This document shows, one piece after another, positions 7,426 through 53,574 of a stretch of DNA of 64,000 nucleotides (position 1 is its first letter; each line of letters begins with the position of its first letter). The notes beneath the pieces were generated by a model. The model was not told the DNA's origin. It saw only the letters and a program-made list of their open reading frames with translations, and ran no database searches. A program made the translations under genes and the position numbers. Source of the DNA: Verrucomicrobiia bacterium (GTDB lineage Bacteria; Verrucomicrobiota; Verrucomicrobiia; Limisphaerales; JAEYXS01); contig DASWYF010000035.1 in NCBI GenBank assembly GCA_036405135.1, positions 1-64,000 of the forward strand, given 5' to 3'.

Positions 7426-8871
7426 ATGAAAGCCTCTTTGCCTGGAGCTTTACTGGCCTGCTGGTTATGGATGACGTTCACGCCCAATCCGATTCACTCT
7501 GCCCAAATCTTTTTGGGGCAAGGGACATTGGCAGGGGAAGTCACCACCGACAGTGTGATTTTGCAGGCACGACTGACGGGGGCGGAATCGGTGATCGACG
7601 GTGATGTGCCGGGCATGCGGGGTGTTTTGCGGTTCGAGATCGATGAGCATCCGACCTTTCCCAAGCCAATCCAAACTGCGTGGATGAATGCCCGTCCGGA
7701 CGGAGATTTCATGGTGAAGACCAGGGTCACAGGATTGAAGCCGGATACGGAGTATTATTATCGTCCAGTTTTCGGTTCCCACGAGCGACAGTCGTTGCCT
7801 GATATCGCGCGAGTTTTCCGGACGTTGGGCGGCAAGAGTTCTGAACGGCCGGTGAAGTTCGTGATGGGGAGCTGCATGAATTATGCTGTCTTTCATAGTG
7901 GAAAGGATGGCAAAGGACAGGGGGCGGCCTTGGGCGTGGAAAAGGATAACGGATATGTGGCGTTCACATCGATGTTCCGTATCAGGCCGGATTTCTATAT
8001 CGGCAACGGCGATAATGTCTATTACGACAACCCCTTGGCCACGCGGGCTAAAACGGTGCAGGATATGCGGAGGAAATGGCACGAGCAATTTGTGCAGGTG
8101 ACCATGAACCAGCTATTCGCCATCACGCCCACCTACTGGTTGAAAGATGACCATGACTACCGGTTCAATGATGCGGATTCCACGCAGGAGCAAGAGCCGT
8201 CCCACGGCTTGGGCATCCGCATTTTTCGCGAGCAGTTGCCGGTGGTGGATCCGGCGGATACAAATGCCGTCACTTACCGGACTCACAGGGTCAGCAGGCA
8301 TCTGCAACTCTGGTTTGTGGAAGGACGTGATCATCGCAGCCCGAACAAGATGCGGGATGGACCGGAGAAAAGCATCTGGGGGAAGGAGCAGAAGGAATGG
8401 CTCAAGCGCACGCTGAAGGAGAGCGATGCGACCTTCAAACTGCTTATCTCACCCACGCCGATGATCGGGCCGGATGATGCATCCAAGCGGGACAACCATG
8501 CGAATATCGGAGGGTTTCGGCATGAGGGCGAGGAGTTCTTCGAGTGGATGAAGGCGAACGACATCGGTACCAACCAGTTTTTCATCCTCTGCGGCGACCG
8601 GCACTGGCAGTATCAATCCCAGCATCCTAGCGGATACCAAGAATTTGCCTGTGGGGCGTTAAACACCCAGAATGCCCGAACGGGCCCAAAACCAGGTGCT
8701 GAAAAATCAACCGATCCCCGAGGGGAAGTTAAGCAGATGTTCACCTCACCTAAACCGGTGGGAGGCTTTTTACTGGTGGAGCAGGGGACGTTTGGCAAAC
8801 TGCAGCAGTTGCAAATCACCTTCAAAGATGAGTCAGGCACATCGCTTCATTCGATGCGGATATTGAAATAG
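7426..8871 (+). CDS. PhoD-like metallophosphatase / phosphodiesterase, exported
   Basis: The product is an alkaline phosphatase D-type enzyme of about 481 residues. Visible metal-site motifs are GSCMNY (the Cys used by PhoD for iron), GNGDNVYYDN, KDDHDYRFND and CGDRHWQYQ, in the correct order. The N-terminus (MKASLPGALLACWLWMTF up to about HSA) is a signal peptide, which supports the start at 7426 rather than an in-frame codon at 7387 inside the HTTM gene. PhoD enzymes cleave phosphate mono- or diesters outside the cytoplasm using Fe and Ca. It lies 16 bases after the HTTM gene and may be the last gene of the imelysin operon. Confidence 0.88.
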   Translation: MKASLPGALLACWLWMTFTPNPIHSAQIFLGQGTLAGEVTTDSVILQARLTGAESVIDGDVPGMRGVLRFEIDEHPTFPKPIQTAWMNARPDGDFMVKTRVTGLKPDTEYYYRPVFGSHERQSLPDIARVFRTLGGKSSERPVKFVMGSCMNYAVFHSGKDGKGQGAALGVEKDNGYVAFTSMFRIRPDFYIGNGDNVYYDNPLATRAKTVQDMRRKWHEQFVQVTMNQLFAITPTYWLKDDHDYRFNDADSTQEQEPSHGLGIRIFREQLPVVDPADTNAVTYRTHRVSRHLQLWFVEGRDHRSPNKMRDGPEKSIWGKEQKEWLKRTLKESDATFKLLISPTPMIGPDDASKRDNHANIGGFRHEGEEFFEWMKANDIGTNQFFILCGDRHWQYQSQHPSGYQEFACGALNTQNARTGPKPGAEKSTDPRGEVKQMFTSPKPVGGFLLVEQGTFGKLQQLQITFKDESGTSLHSMRILK

Positions 8872-8924
8872 CTCACTACGGTTGATGATTCGTCCATAAA
8901 AATCAGGGCTGACTGGGTTAATAA

Positions 8925-8939
8925 TTAGAATTATTCTAA
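8925..8939. promoter_or_regulatory. Per-type box upstream of the Fur/PerR regulator and suf genes
   Basis: TTAGAATTATTCTAA is a perfect 7-1-7 inverted repeat with the layout of the Bacillus PerR operator (TTATAATnATTATAA type). It sits 38 bases before the regulator start, inside an AT-rich stretch likely to hold the promoter. The site implies autoregulation and possibly control of the suf genes that follow. Confidence 0.7.
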
Positions 8940-8977
8940 ATATTGACAGGTCTGGGTAATGGAGGGAGAGTTTATCT

Positions 8978-9421
8978 ATGAGTTTGGAATCAAACGCAAG
9001 CATGAGTGGTGAGCTGAATGAAAAGCTCGCCCATAGCGGCCTGCGCCAGACGCCGCAGCGCCAGTTGGTGTATCAGGTGTTGCTGGAGGAGCGGAATCAT
9101 CCCACGGCGGAGGAAGTTTTCATTCGCGTGAAGCAAAAGACGCCGGATATCTCCATGGCGACAGTGTATAACTGTTTGGATGCCTTGGTGAAGTGCAGTG
9201 TGGTGAAGCAGGTGAACTTGGATCGCGGGGCGAGCCGTTATTGTCCTAACATGATGGACCACAGCCACTTCCATTGCGAGCAATGCGGTGGGGTGTTTGA
9301 TATCGACCTGACTAACCCCTTGGAAGCGGCGGGGGCCCGGATGCCGCGTGGGTTTCAGGTGAAGCACATGGACCTGACCTTGAAGGGCGTTTGCCCGGCG
9401 TGCGCGCAGAAGCACAATTAA
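8978..9421 (+). CDS. perR: Fur-family regulator, PerR-like
   Basis: The 147-residue protein is a Fur-family winged-helix repressor: recognition region PDISMATVYNCLDALVK, a metal-sensing region HSHFHCEQCGGVFDID, and a second CxxC (CPAC) near the C-terminus for structural zinc. PerR-type regulatory ligands appear present: His in HPTAEEVF, HSHFH, and Asp in VFDID where iron-sensing Fur usually has Glu. Together with the Per-type box upstream, this favours peroxide sensing by iron-catalysed His oxidation, known for Bacillus PerR. A purine-rich site (GGAGGGAGAG) lies eight bases before the ATG. The gene is 19 bases upstream of sufB, so it likely leads the SUF operon and links Fe-S assembly to oxidative stress. 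A zinc or iron Fur cannot be excluded. Confidence 0.88.
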   Translation: MSLESNASMSGELNEKLAHSGLRQTPQRQLVYQVLLEERNHPTAEEVFIRVKQKTPDISMATVYNCLDALVKCSVVKQVNLDRGASRYCPNMMDHSHFHCEQCGGVFDIDLTNPLEAAGARMPRGFQVKHMDLTLKGVCPACAQKHN

Positions 9422-9440
9422 TTTTTAGATTTCCGATAAG

Positions 9441-10892
9441 ATGAGCACAGCGACAGAGACAATCGAAGGATTCGTAAAGAGCGAGTATAAGTACGGCTTC
9501 GTGACGGACGTGGAGGCGGATTCCGCACCTCCCGGCCTGAGCGAGGAGATCGTGCGTTTCATTTCCGCCAAGAAGAACGAGCCGGAATGGCTCCTCGAAT
9601 GGCGTTTGAAGGCGTATCGCTACTGGGTGAACATGAAGGAGCCGCAGTGGCCGCATGTGGATTATCCGCCGGTGAACTTCCAGGACATCATCTATTACTC
9701 CTCGCCGAAGCAGGCGGGCAAGAATGCGCCGAAGAGTCTCGATGAAGTAGATCCGAAGCTGCTCGAGATGTATGCGAAGCTGGGTATTCCTCTGCGCGAG
9801 CGGGAACGGTTGGCGGGTGTGGCCGTGGACGTCGTCATGGATAGCGTCTCCGTGGGCACGACATACAAGGAAACGCTCGCGGAAAAGGGTATCATCTTCT
9901 GCTCGTTCTCAGAAGCGGTGAAGGAACATCCGGAACTGGTGAAGAAGTATCTCGGCTCCGTGGTGCCTTACACGGATAATTTTTACGCAGCACTGAACTC
10001 TGCGGTCTTCAGTGACGGCTCGTTCTGCTACATCCCGAAGGGTGTGCGTTGTCCGATGGAACTCTCCACGTATTTCCGCATCAATGCGGCGAAGACGGGA
10101 CAGTTCGAGCGCACGTTGCTCATCGCGGATGAAGGCTCGCACGTGAGTTATCTGGAAGGTTGCACGGCCCCGATGCGGGATGAGAATCAGCTTCACGCGG
10201 CTGTTGTCGAGCTGATCACGCATGACAATGCGGAGATCAAGTATTCCACGGTGCAGAACTGGTATCCGGGCGATGCGGAAGGTCGCGGCGGTATCTATAA
10301 CTTCGTGACGAAGCGCGGCATGTGCAAGGGCCGTAACTCGAAGATTTCCTGGACGCAGGTAGAGACGGGCTCCGCCATCACGTGGAAATATCCGAGCTGC
10401 ATCTTGCTCGGTGATAATTCGGTGGGCGAGTTCTACTCCGTGGCGCTCACTAACCAGAAACAACAGGCGGATACGGGCACGAAGATGGTGCACATCGGCA
10501 AGAACACGCGCAGCACGATCATCTCGAAGGGCATCTCGGCGGGTCGCGGCCAGAACAGCTATCGCGGTCTGGTGGAGATCCGTAAGAGCGCGACGAATGC
10601 GCGTAACTTCTCGCAGTGCGATTCGCTGCTGATCGGTGACAAGTGCGGCGCGCACACGTTCCCGTATATCGAGGTGAAGAACACCACGGGCAGCGTGGAG
10701 CATGAGGCGACGACCTCGAAGATCGGTGAGGACCAGATCTTTTACTGCAACCAGCGCGGCATCTCCACGCAGGACGCGGTGAACATGATCGTGAACGGCT
10801 TCTGCAAAGAAGTGTTCAAGGAACTGCCGATGGAATTCGCGGTGGAAGCGCAGAAGCTGCTGGGTGTCAGTTTGGAAGGAAGCGTTGGTTAA
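9441..10892 (+). CDS. sufB: Fe-S cluster assembly scaffold protein SufB
   Basis: The 483-residue product is SufB, part of the SufBC2D complex that assembles Fe-S clusters under stress in the cytoplasm. The family core is intact: [27 protein letters not shown], and the C-terminal [16 protein letters not shown], where Cys402 corresponds to the essential Cys405 of E. coli SufB. Length fits the family. It follows the PerR-like gene closely, but sufC is nearly 500 bases away because a GxxExxY element lies between. Transcription must pass through that element, or sufC needs its own promoter. Confidence 0.97.
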
Positions 10893-10898
10893 TTTTTA

Positions 10899-11363
10899 TT
10901 TAGCCACGGATGGAACACGGAAGAAACACAGATGATGCAGGTGCAGATTTTACATGCTGATGTGACTGAAAAGATCATTGGTGCTGCATTTGAGGTGCAT
11001 CGAGTGTTAGGTTATGGGTTTTGGAAAGTGTTTATCAGAAGGCTTTGCAGGCTGAGTTGGTGAAGGCTGGTTTTAAGGCTGAAACTGAATGTGCGTTAAA
11101 AGTTAATTATAAAGGCACTGTTGTCGGAAACTTTGCGGCGGATTTACTAGTGAATGATGTGGTGCTGGTAGAATTGAAAGTGGCGAAAAACTATAATGCT
11201 GAAGATGAAGCGCAGTTGCTGAATGAACTGAAGGCTTCCGGGATCAAGGTCGGACTCTTGATCAACTTTGGCAGAACAAAAGTAGAATTTAAGCGAATGG
11301 TGTTTTGAACGGCCATAAATAGAACACAATCCGTGTTTCATCTGTGTTCAATCTGTGGCCAAG
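10899..11363. mobile_element. GxxExxY element with 35-bp imperfect terminal inverted repeats
   Basis: The ends 10899-10933 and 11329-11363 are inverted copies matching at 28 of 35 positions, built from short runs such as GCCACGGAT, GAACACGG and AAACACAGAT. Between them lies only the frameshifted GxxExxY gene, and the gene's ATG lies within the left repeat. The element is AT-richer than its surroundings and splits the suf operon between sufB and sufC. The same end sequence frames a gene-less element at 16028-16217. I infer a small transposable unit; target-site duplication is not clear. Confidence 0.7.
10932..11308 (+). pseudogene. GxxExxY protein gene, -1 frameshift in a T run
   Basis: Translation from the ATG at 10932 gives MMQVQILHADVTEKIIGAAF, EVHRVLGYGF, the usual N-terminal half of a GxxExxY protein, and then shifts. 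The following family sequence (LESVYQKALQAEL through LVELKVAKNYNAEDEAQLLN to LLINFG) is in another frame starting at 11021. Restoring one T to the TTTT run at 11019-11022 joins them perfectly as GYGFLESVYQ. So the gene has lost one base in a homopolymer, or the assembly has an error there. GxxExxY proteins are small, widely transferred, nuclease-fold-like proteins of unknown function. Base composition differs from the flanking suf genes, consistent with insertion. Confidence 0.85.
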
Positions 11364-11389
11364 AAAATTTATCGAAATAGAAACAGCAA

Positions 11390-12160
11390 ATGAGCGAAAC
11401 GATTCTTGAGATCAAAGACCTCCAGGCGGGGGTGGAAGAGAAACAGATTTTGAAGGGCCTGAACCTGACCATCAAGGCGGGTGAAGTCCATGCGATCATG
11501 GGACCGAACGGCAGCGGCAAGAGCACGCTGGCGTCGGTGCTGGCTGGTCGCGATGGCTACGATGTCATCGGCGGTTCCTCCACGTATCTTGGCAAAGACC
11601 TGCTGGAAATGGACCCGGAAGAGCGCGCCCGCGAAGGCGTTTTCCTCGCGTTCCAATATCCCATCGAGATCCCCGGTGTGAACACCACCTACTTCCTGAA
11701 GGCGGCGGTGAATGAAGTGCGCAAGCACAAGGGCCTGCCGGAATTGGACGCGATGGAGTTCCTGAAATTCGTGAAGCAGAAGGCGAAGCTGCTCGAGCTG
11801 CGTGAGGATTTCCTCAAGCGCGCGGTGAATGAAGGCTTCTCCGGCGGTGAAAAGAAGCGCAACGAGATCTTCCAGATGGCGTGCCTTGAGCCTCGCCTCG
11901 CGATCCTCGATGAAACGGATTCCGGTCTGGATATCGATGCGTTGAAGGTGGTTTCCGAGGGCGTGAACAAGCTGAAGAACGCGAACAATGCGCAGCTCGT
12001 CATCACGCATTATCAACGTCTGCTCGATTATATCGTCCCTGACTACGTGCACGTGCTCTACAATGGGCGCATCGTGAAGTCCGGCACCAAGGAGCTCGCG
12101 CTGGAGCTGGAAGAAAAGGGCTACGACTGGATCACGAAGGGCGAACTCCAAACCGCGTAA
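11390..12160 (+). CDS. sufC: Fe-S cluster assembly ATPase SufC
   Basis: The 256-residue ABC-type ATPase has Walker A (GPNGSGKST), the SufC signature (FSGGEKKRNEIFQM), and Walker B (PRLAILDETDSGLDIDALK). It powers the SufBC2D scaffold in the cytoplasm; it has no membrane partner. It starts 27 bases after the right inverted repeat of the GxxExxY element and is followed at 16 bases by sufD. Confidence 0.97.
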   Translation: MSETILEIKDLQAGVEEKQILKGLNLTIKAGEVHAIMGPNGSGKSTLASVLAGRDGYDVIGGSSTYLGKDLLEMDPEERAREGVFLAFQYPIEIPGVNTTYFLKAAVNEVRKHKGLPELDAMEFLKFVKQKAKLLELREDFLKRAVNEGFSGGEKKRNEIFQMACLEPRLAILDETDSGLDIDALKVVSEGVNKLKNANNAQLVITHYQRLLDYIVPDYVHVLYNGRIVKSGTKELALELEEKGYDWITKGELQTA

Positions 12161-12176
12161 TTCAAGCGGCACTGAC

Positions 12177-13535
12177 ATGACGCAGACCCTGAACAAACCT
12201 ATCGCTGCCGAAGCCGACAGCCGTCTCGCCGCGTTTGACCGGCTGGAAGGCACGTTCGCCAAGCAGCAACCGGCGTGGCTTTTCCCGCTGCGCAAGGCCG
12301 GTATCTCGCAGTTCGCCGAACTGGGCTATCCCACGCTCCACGACGAGGACTGGCGCTTTACGAACGTGGCGCACGCGGCCAAGCTGCCGTTCATTCCGGC
12401 CACGGAACCGGCCTCAGCCAACGTGACGCTGGCGGACTTGAAGCAATTTCCTTTCGCGGATCAACCGGGCTCACGCTTGGTGTTCGTGGATGGTCACTAT
12501 GCAGCGGCGCTTTCGAACGTCACGGCTTTGCCCGCTGGGGTGAAGGTGGCGAGCTTGAAGCAATCGCTCGCGACGGATGCGGCGCTCATCGAGAAGCATC
12601 TCGGCCGTTATTCCGGTAATGAAGCGAATGCATTTGCGGCGTTGAACATTGCGTTCTTCACGGATGGTCTCTTCGTACATGTGCCGAAGAATGCCGTGGT
12701 GGAGCAAGCAGTGCAGGTGATCTATCTGAGCACAGCGACGGAAGCTGGTTTTGCCTCGCATGTGCGGAATCTGGTGATCGTGGAGGCGGGTGCGAAGCTG
12801 ACTTTGTTGGAAAGCTACGTGAGCTTGGCCAAGGCACCTTACGTTACAAATGCCATCACGGAACTTGTCGTGGGCGACAATGCCTGGGTGGAACACGTGA
12901 AGTTCCAGGATGAAGCGGCGGACGCGTTTCATTTCGCGGCGTTGCATGGCGTGTTCGGTCGCACGTCGAAGGCGTGGACGCACTCGCTCGCGCTCGGCAG
13001 CAAGCTGGCGCGTTACAACTTGCGCACGAAGCTGGATGGCGAAGGACTCGAAGCGATTCTCAACGGGCTTTACCTTACGCGCAACGAACAGGTGATCGAT
13101 CATCACATGATCGTGGAACACGCGAAGGCGCATTGCGCGAGCCATGAGTATTTCAACGGCATCCTCGATGATAAATCGAAGGGTGTTTTTCACGGCCGCA
13201 TCTTGGTGAAGCCGGACGCGCAGAAGACGGATGCGAAACAGACGAATCGCAATCTGCTCCTGAGCGATGACGCGACAGCGGATGCGAAGCCGCAGTTGGA
13301 GATTTACGCGGATGACGTGAAGTGCACGCACGGCGCGACGATCGGCCGGATGAATGAAGAGCAGATCTTTTATCTTCGCGCGCGTGGCATCGGTGAAAAG
13401 ACGGCGCGCCGGATGTTGATGCATGCGTTCGCGGGCGAGATCATTGATCGCGTGCAAACGGAAGCGGTCCGTGAAGAGTTGGATAAAATCGTGTGGGACC
13501 GGCTGGAAATGAACCCGCATTTGCACGATAGCTAG
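12177..13535 (+). CDS. sufD: Fe-S cluster assembly protein SufD
   Basis: The 452-residue SufD partners SufB in the SufBC2D scaffold. The N-terminal helical part contains the usual DEDWRFTNVA segment, and the C-terminal beta-helix core ends in CTHGATIGRMNEEQIFYLRARG, containing the conserved His (His360 in E. coli) involved in cluster assembly. It is a normal length and closely follows sufC. A cluster of hairpins separates it from sufE. Confidence 0.96.
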   Translation: MTQTLNKPIAAEADSRLAAFDRLEGTFAKQQPAWLFPLRKAGISQFAELGYPTLHDEDWRFTNVAHAAKLPFIPATEPASANVTLADLKQFPFADQPGSRLVFVDGHYAAALSNVTALPAGVKVASLKQSLATDAALIEKHLGRYSGNEANAFAALNIAFFTDGLFVHVPKNAVVEQAVQVIYLSTATEAGFASHVRNLVIVEAGAKLTLLESYVSLAKAPYVTNAITELVVGDNAWVEHVKFQDEAADAFHFAALHGVFGRTSKAWTHSLALGSKLARYNLRTKLDGEGLEAILNGLYLTRNEQVIDHHMIVEHAKAHCASHEYFNGILDDKSKGVFHGRILVKPDAQKTDAKQTNRNLLLSDDATADAKPQLEIYADDVKCTHGATIGRMNEEQIFYLRARGIGEKTARRMLMHAFAGEIIDRVQTEAVREELDKIVWDRLEMNPHLHDS

Positions 13536-13540
13536 AAGAG

Positions 13541-13631
13541 CCGCCGGGACGGACGGCGGTACGGCAGGCCAGAGGCCTGCGCTACGTAGTGCCCCGCGTC
13601 TCGCGGGCTGTATCGCAGGCGTCACGCCTGC
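13541..13631. repeat. String of four hairpins between sufD and sufE
   Basis: Four consecutive palindromes fill the gap: CCGCCG/CGGCGG, GCAGGCC/GGCCTGC (loop AGA), CCCGCG/CGCGGG (loop TCT) and GCAGGC/GCCTGC (loop GTCAC). None has a T-tract, so they look like a REP-type element rather than a terminator. They may stabilise or process the suf transcript. Confidence 0.65.
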
Positions 13632-14769: not shown

Positions 14770-16032
14770 ATGAGCGCTACCGCCACATTGTCCGCACCGC
14801 AGAAACCGATCGTTCCCGATTGGGCCGCGTTGCGTGCTGATTTCCCCATCCTTAATGAGGTGGTGAACGGCCAGCCGCTCATCTACTTCGACAACGGCGC
14901 GACTAGCCAGAAGCCCAAGCAGGTGCTCGCGGCCATCCAGCGTTACTACGAGCATGAGAATGCCAATGTGCATCGGGGCATCCATGAATTGAGCAATCGT
15001 GCGACGGAAGCTTACGAGAATGCTCGTCAACGCACGGCGCAGTTCCTGAACGCCCGCGACAAGTCCGAGATCATCTTCACGCGTGGCACGACGGAAGGCA
15101 TCAACCTCGTGGCGGCGACTTGGGCGCTGGATCACCTCAAGCCGGGTGACACAATTCTCATCAGTGAGCTGGAGCATCACAGCAATCTGGTACCGTGGCA
15201 GATGGTCGCCAAGCGCACGGGTGCAAAGCTTGCTTACATCCCGGTGACTGGTGATGAAGGAACGCTCGATCTCAGCCGTCTTGATAAGATGGCTGCGGAT
15301 GGGGTGAAGATTCTTTCCATCACGCACATATCGAATTCGATGGGTGTGGTGAATCCGGTGGCGGAGATTTGCGCGAAGGCGCGGGCGCAAGGAGTGGTGA
15401 CGGTGATCGATGCGGCGCAAAGCGCGGGGCATTTACCCATCGATGTGCAGGCGATCGGGTGCGATTTCCTCGCGTTTTCGAGTCACAAGATTTGCGGTCC
15501 TACGGGCATGGGTGTGTTGTATGGGCGCAAGGAAATCCTGAAAGACCTGTCGCCTTACCAAGGCGGCGGCGAAATGATTTCGAAGGTGGAGTATTTCGAT
15601 ACGGTTTACAATGTGCCGCCGCATCGGTTTGAGGCGGGCACGCCGCACATCGCGGGAGCGGTCGGATTGCATGCGGCGTTGGATTACCTCGATGCCATCG
15701 GGCGTGAGCGCATCTTCGCACATGATCAGGAACTTGCTGAGTATGCGGCGGCGAAATTGGCAGAGTTCAAAGGCATCCGCATCTTCGGGCCGAAACAAGG
15801 GCGGGCAGGTTTGGTGAGCTTTGTGTTACCGAATGCCCATGCGCTGGACATCGCCACGATGGTGGATCAGAAGGGTGTCGCATTGAGGGCAGGGCATCAT
15901 TGCAATCAACCGTTGATGGCCAAGCTGGGTGTGCCAGCGACGTTGCGGGCGAGCTTCTACTTCTACAATACGAAGGCGGAAGTGGACCGTTTCATCGAAA
16001 TTCTGCACAAGGTGCAAAAGCTTTTTGTTTAA
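14770..16032 (+). CDS. sufS: Cysteine desulphurase SufS
   Basis: The 420-residue PLP enzyme releases sulphur from cysteine for cluster assembly. Conserved sites are visible: ELEHHSNLVPWQ, the PLP-binding Lys240 in FSSHKICGPTGMG, and catalytic Cys378 in RAGHHCNQP of the group II (SufS-type) short loop. It pairs with the SufE in the same operon. The stop codon runs straight into the inverted repeat of a mobile-like element. Confidence 0.97.
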   Translation: MSATATLSAPQKPIVPDWAALRADFPILNEVVNGQPLIYFDNGATSQKPKQVLAAIQRYYEHENANVHRGIHELSNRATEAYENARQRTAQFLNARDKSEIIFTRGTTEGINLVAATWALDHLKPGDTILISELEHHSNLVPWQMVAKRTGAKLAYIPVTGDEGTLDLSRLDKMAADGVKILSITHISNSMGVVNPVAEICAKARAQGVVTVIDAAQSAGHLPIDVQAIGCDFLAFSSHKICGPTGMGVLYGRKEILKDLSPYQGGGEMISKVEYFDTVYNVPPHRFEAGTPHIAGAVGLHAALDYLDAIGRERIFAHDQELAEYAAAKLAEFKGIRIFGPKQGRAGLVSFVLPNAHALDIATMVDQKGVALRAGHHCNQPLMAKLGVPATLRASFYFYNTKAEVDRFIEILHKVQKLFV

Positions 16033-16217
16033 CCACAGACCGGTAGCACCGGTGGCAAACACAGATGCATCAGTTTTGGACGCAATTCTGCATGAGTTGA
16101 AGGAAAGGGCGGAGGGGAAGCCCGGCACCCCTCACCCCGGCCCTCTCCCCTCCGAGGGGCGAGGGAGATGGAGCGTTGTTTCGCTATCTGTGTGCATCTG
16201 TGTTAATCTGTGGTTTA
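16028..16217. mobile_element. MITE-like element sharing ends with the GxxExxY element, with a nested palindrome
   Basis: The left end (16028-16062, with runs TTTAACCACAGA and AAACACAGATGCATC) and right end (16184-16217, with GCATCTGTGTTAATCTGTGG) are inverted to each other and resemble the ends at 10899 and 11329. The left end contains a short insertion with a CCGGTAGCACCGG palindrome. The interior holds no gene but a copy of the dispersed palindrome around CCCCTCCGAGGGG at 16130-16177. The left end begins within the sufS stop codon. Confidence 0.6.
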
Positions 16218-53452: not shown

Positions 53453-53574
53453 GTTAAGCGCAGTAAGTATATGGGAGAGTTGGGAATGGCCGCAAGAAGG
53501 CGCAAAGGGCGCAAAATAAGGGGGTTATGCCACGGATGAGATACGGATCACACGGTTAGGAATGGAAGCGGTTT

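Follow-up and report, generated by a model that had tools for sequence, protein, structure and literature searches.

Inverted arrays of subfamily-specific repeats around GxxExxY genes suggest a REPIN-RAYT-like partnership built on a predicted nuclease

Why should a small GxxExxY gene with inverted ends stand between two core genes of the suf operon, and what are those ends for? The question was raised by the window, a stretch of 64,000 nucleotides (contig DASWYF010000035.1) from the genome of a Verrucomicrobiia bacterium, in which the gene was originally predicted to form, together with its ends, a mobile unit inserted between sufB and sufC. GxxExxY and S23 are common protein families with no accepted function, and the link to repeat arrays described here provides a concrete candidate substrate for each of them.

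The element occupies the gap between sufB (positions 9441-10892, plus strand; an ORF of 483 aa with 96-98% identity in congeners) and sufC (11390-12160, plus strand; an ORF of 256 aa). Read in reverse complement, its right end (11329-11363; CTTGGCCACAGATTGAACACAGATGAAACACGGAT) is identical to its left end (10899-10933; TTTAGCCACGGATGGAACACGGAAGAAACACAGAT) at 28 of 35 positions, which bears out the 35-bp inverted ends of the original prediction, since 60 random placements of the same geometry in the window gave a best match of 22 and a median of about 18. A chance origin of the ends is ruled out by these placements together with the control ORFs considered below. The ends are not simple terminal repeats: each consists of three tandem CACRGAW-type units at a spacing of approximately 11 nt, which on the plus strand of the left array follow TTTAG and read CACGGAT-GGAA-CACGGAA-GAAA-CACAGAT, and which on the minus strand of the right array read CACAGAT-TGAA-CACAGAT-GAAA-CACGGAT. 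The idea that the gene's ATG lies within the left end stands only in part, as the first ATG (10932-10934) overlaps just the inner edge of the array. No Rfam match was obtained in the interval 8800-13600.

The bracketed gene was assigned to GxxExxY by its profile scores (TIGR04256, 103.2 bits against a cut-off of 35; PF13366 PDDEXK_3, 98.8 bits against a cut-off of 22) and its conserved residues, although the copy in the window is frameshifted. Translation and comparison with the intact relatives L172, whose protein has 124 aa, and L061 place the N-terminal part in its original frame (10935-11018, plus strand), with the start at ATGATG (10932-10937; MQVQILHADVTEKIIGAAFEVHRVLGYGF) and a length of about 29 codons. 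The remaining 95 aa (11021-11308, plus strand; LESVYQKAL...), which score 103 and 99 bits against TIGR04256 and PF13366, lie in another frame, with a one-base loss near 11012-11020. GxxExxY relatives at the sufB-sufC site are intact, unlike this copy. Given the frameshift and a poorer match between the two arrays than is seen in those intact relatives, the copy in the window is, judging from its sequence, probably dead.

At the level of the family, structural modelling indicates that GxxExxY is a PD-(D/E)XK nuclease with a restriction-endonuclease-like fold. Among 64 GxxExxY proteins E31, Y34, D70 and N111 are invariant and K82 is present in at least 90%, the PD-(D/E)XK catalytic set E31, D70 and K82 being conserved in the family. 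The predicted structure (pLDDT 94) had as top matches SSO0001, which we take to be a Cas4-type nuclease, and other restriction-endonuclease-like folds (Z 8.8), with Holliday-junction resolvases also among its structural matches; a sequence search for a solved close homologue gave no significant match. A search of 50,697 phage records found no GxxExxY, and among 72,556 plasmids 8 carried it; its assignment to a defence system was discarded, as PADLOC returned no match. In the open-access literature found, no partner sequence had been assigned to the family, and an earlier description elsewhere is possible.

Inverted ends are a general property of GxxExxY genes in the order to which this genome belongs, Verrucomicrobia subdivision 3. 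The sample comprised 72 GxxExxY genes with enough flanking sequence, taken from this genome and from relatives of the same order, mostly one genome per family and mostly drafts, in which the genes of the context were called as simple ORFs. The left flank was aligned to the reverse-complemented right flank, and a score of at least 15, a threshold chosen by eye and checked by two nulls (swapped loci and other ORFs), was reached by 61 of the 72 genes as compared with 18 of 600 swapped-locus pairs. None of 153 control ORFs had inverted ends once the window gene itself, which had been picked up as an ORF, was set aside, so that the predicted tie between end sequences and GxxExxY genes extends across the lineage. 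Several of the pattern and threshold choices were made post hoc, on data already seen. The S23 genes (PF05635) also carry inverted ends (30 of 36), with an array period of 7 nt and its multiple 14, as against 8-11 nt at GxxExxY genes. These S23 or four-helix genes (L037-L042 in this genome, and L143-L171) show a GxxExxY-like architecture with heptamer arrays, and their elements are packed tightly into operons of core genes, among them metK-ahcY (L037) and sdhA-sdhB (L040). Three GxxExxY loci (L046, L104 and L107, from G027 and G025) bear a complete inverted CCGCGAAATACGCGAAATACGC-type doublet on each side, rather than a single arm.

Within this genome the array sequence differs from element to element, and what it follows is the protein. 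Similarity between arrays grows with protein identity (Mantel p of about 0.001), arrays being shared by 75% of the pairs at 80% protein identity or more and by at most 2% of the pairs below 50%. Part of this sharing is simple co-inheritance at orthologous sites, as flanking genes are common to 22 of the 95 pairs at 60% identity or above. Ends of the type CCACGGAT(G/T)(A/G)AACACGGAT are found at genes of the window's subfamily in Planctomycetes, Spartobacteria and one Proteobacteria MAG, whose proteins are 60-70% identical; these copies lie outside sufB-sufC and their arrays are nearly unchanged. At orthologous sites, both arms may change together, for instance CGCTAAT (L053) against CGCAGAT (L071).

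The array family of the window is dispersed through this genome, with 54 copies at up to three mismatches and 1 for the reversed pattern. Among 30 array loci examined here, 29 are solo and the window element is the sole pair; 25 of the 30 do not overlap any ORF of at least 80 aa. Solo arrays in the window include one just past a cysteine desulfurase-like ORF at 14770-16032 (array at 16185-16212, minus strand) and a degenerate one at 53531-53556 (plus strand). When arrays were counted by searching a strict pattern in 58 genomes, with the reversed pattern as a control that gave 0 in all 58, this genome had 39, G004 235, G024 75, G019 40, G020 31, G025 27, G028 10, G052 7 and G009 6, the remaining ones having 0-2. 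The subfamily gene is carried by five of these genomes (at least 61% identity, the next best being 51%), and their counts are 39, 235, 27, 10 and 7, whereas 49 of the 53 genomes without that gene have 0-2. The gene is thus associated with array-rich genomes (Fisher p = 2.7e-5, from five positive genomes, mostly drafts), and a rank test in which the gene copies' own ends were subtracted, by estimate, gave p = 4.6e-5. Cross-controls with a second array family gave weak associations (Fisher 0.20 and 0.29), and a parallel tendency links this second family to the gene of its own subfamily, in two genomes only. Four genomes (G009, G019, G020 and G024) are array-rich without the window-subfamily gene, and CGCGAAATA arrays occur without a matching gene in G000 and G017. 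No GxxExxY gene at all was detected in G024, with its 75 arrays, or in G017, with 34 CGCGAAATA arrays; in these genomes either the gene has been lost or another protein maintains the arrays. The S23-type array is likewise dispersed, with 85 copies in this genome.

In relatives, the same ends are also paired without the gene. A set of 33 gene-less doublets of 51-135 bp was collected from G004, G019 and G052, those of G004 and G019 having the layout of an inward-facing inverted pair, TTTTAGCCACGGATGAAACACGGAT... spacer ...ATCCGTGTTTCATCCGTGGCTAAAA. From copy to copy neither the spacers nor the flanks are related (spacer pair scores of at most 10, with a median of 5).

These features fit best with the idea, which we hold on balance to be probable, of a gene-repeat partnership that resembles REPIN-RAYT and is built on a PD-(D/E)XK nuclease instead of an HUH transposase. 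A GxxExxY nuclease gene with inverted arrays of the repeat specific to its subfamily on both sides would encode an enzyme, mostly vertically inherited and single-copy, that recognises these arrays and has contributed to the dispersal of inverted doublets, its own gene staying for long at one operon site. Spreading would proceed through binding and cutting of the arrays by the nuclease, and it is from the features above that we infer that GxxExxY cuts them. In REPIN-RAYT systems the gene is typically flanked by its repeat, as it is here. These systems, described in Pseudomonas and enterobacteria (PMC8049555, PMC3116915), share with the window system inverted doublets with diverse spacers and singlets, as well as a vertically inherited gene, repeats that are more numerous where the gene is present, and near-absence of the gene from plasmids, from which RAYTs are reported to be absent (PMC8049555). 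Likewise, the window-subfamily gene is vertically inherited and is the single copy of its subfamily. The differences lie in the enzyme, an HUH/Y1 tyrosine transposase there and a PD-(D/E)XK nuclease here, and in the repeat, since a REP is self-palindromic whereas each arm here is made of about three tandem direct units with a period of 8-11 nt and, by inspection, is not self-complementary. Since neither the enzyme nor the internal make-up of its repeat is that of REPIN-RAYT, the system is not a member of that family, though it apparently works alike.

The history of the suf site bears on the main alternative, a conventional transposon, newly arrived in the suf operon, whose terminal inverted repeats would enclose GxxExxY as transposase or cargo and whose MITEs would be the gene-less doublets. 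GxxExxY fills the sufB-sufC gap in G025, G028 and G052 and in additional MAGs of Verrucomicrobia subdivision 3; G012 has a gene-less pair there, and G003, G019 and G024 have other small genes that look like PIN or toxin-antitoxin genes. Neither of the congeners G001 and G002 has anything in the gap, so that the empty site expected in close relatives is indeed present within the genus. Across the order the gap (L084, L077, L095, L091 and L086) is one into which small genes have repeatedly been inserted, and the insert at L095 carries a single CACGGAT array. GxxExxY divergence, however, tracks SufC divergence (r = 0.78 over 36 pairs from ten sufB-sufC copies), which rules out a fresh insertion into the operon and marks the window copy as an old resident. 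By this comparison of sequences, the copy appears to be old, vertically inherited and now decaying here, and the element has probably been lost in G001 and G002. No target duplication is recognisable against these two congeners, where the intergenic DNA has diverged or been replaced. Short element-free gaps were also found in one or both congeners at the sites of further elements that this genome carries (L001, L004, metK-ahcY, L038 and sdhA-sdhB), through gain or loss, and the L004 site holds a different insert in G002.

A transposon would account for the empty sites at sufB-sufC, metK-ahcY, sdhA-sdhB, L001 and L004, and for the recurrence of the unit of gene and ends in differing contexts and in several phyla; a gene unit with inverted ends, short gene-less versions and presence or absence among congeners are what is known from MITEs and transposons with terminal inverted repeats. 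It sits poorly with the SufC-congruent divergence and with the lack of a recognisable target duplication, and it differs from such elements in that the doublets share their arms only, unlike ordinary MITEs, whose interiors are shared, in that the ends vary among elements of one genome, and in that there is no DDE transposase. We therefore regard it as unlikely. As to the claim of a mobile unit, the link with GxxExxY, the empty sites and the gene-less pairs speak for it, while recent insertion and a fixed terminal repeat have to be given up, the ends being subfamily-specific tandem arrays that are also dispersed as gene-less solo copies and doublets.

Less probable still is an element acting at the RNA level, like the intervening sequences of 23S rRNA, in which the arrays would form a stem in the mRNA, RNase III would excise the gene and pairing would be under selection. 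Its appeal comes from the S23 genes, which have the same architecture and are the genes of the 23S rRNA intervening sequences (PMC4990558), and from the direction of the elements, which are co-directional with transcription: relative to both neighbours, 28 GxxExxY elements run in the same direction and 4 in the opposite one after removal of orthologues, and 20 versus 0 do so for S23. The intervening sequences that encode S23p also have inverted termini around one small ORF, with a length of 400-500 nt (PMC4990558), and the S23 genes of the genomes studied here have the architecture of the window element. The window element, however, is intergenic, within a protein operon (sufB-sufC) and not a 23S rRNA helix, encodes GxxExxY, and has arms that bear no mark of selection for RNA pairing in the two comparisons that follow. 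Two arms of the same doublet are no closer to each other (82%) than are arms taken from separate doublets (84%), and for this reason each arm looks like an independent rendering of a consensus that is recognised, and not like a copy kept by base-pairing. In agreement with this comparison, sense-strand mismatches between the two arms are not biased towards G-U (56 vs 60 at GxxExxY and 18 vs 31 at S23), a negative test that speaks against selection for an RNA stem. In addition, many arrays are solo. A reading of the arrays as host regulatory or nucleoid-binding sites, with GxxExxY regulating nearby genes and having no role in copying, is the least probable of all, for while arrays have been kept in place as SufC fell to about 75% identity and their operon positions and orientation bias would suit it, the counts range from 0 to 235 among related families, most gene-less genomes have few or none, and the nuclease residues are conserved.

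If the partnership of nuclease and arrays is true, it would explain one class of tandem repeats scattered between genes and would mean that repeat populations of the REPIN kind have two or more origins, with enzymes that are unrelated. A wider proposal, possible but to be held with some doubt, is that GxxExxY and S23, two unrelated small families, each maintain and spread tandem-array doublets with a code of their own and form an enzyme-repeat class apart from RAYTs. The 23S rRNA intervening sequences would then be a special case of this class, as might the heptamer STRRs. The heptamer STRRs of cyanobacteria and the TAACTGA repeat of Beggiatoaceae (PMC4679880) are also dispersed intergenic arrays of short tandem units, and S23 ends share the 7-nt period, whereas GxxExxY arrays differ by their period of 8-11 nt and their inverted pairing; S23 or four-helix genes are not mentioned in the TAACTGA paper (PMC4679880). 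The S23 protein at L143 (1501-1818) matches phrog_3206, the Avd of diversity-generating retroelements (E 1.9e-5). A reverse-transcription model suggested by this S23-Avd similarity was discarded, as this genome lacks RVT_1 and only 14 of 40 genomes searched have it. At another locus of this genome (L030, approximately 1290-1460), a long tandem array of the GTTCGAT heptamer lies beside a CACGGAT-type array.
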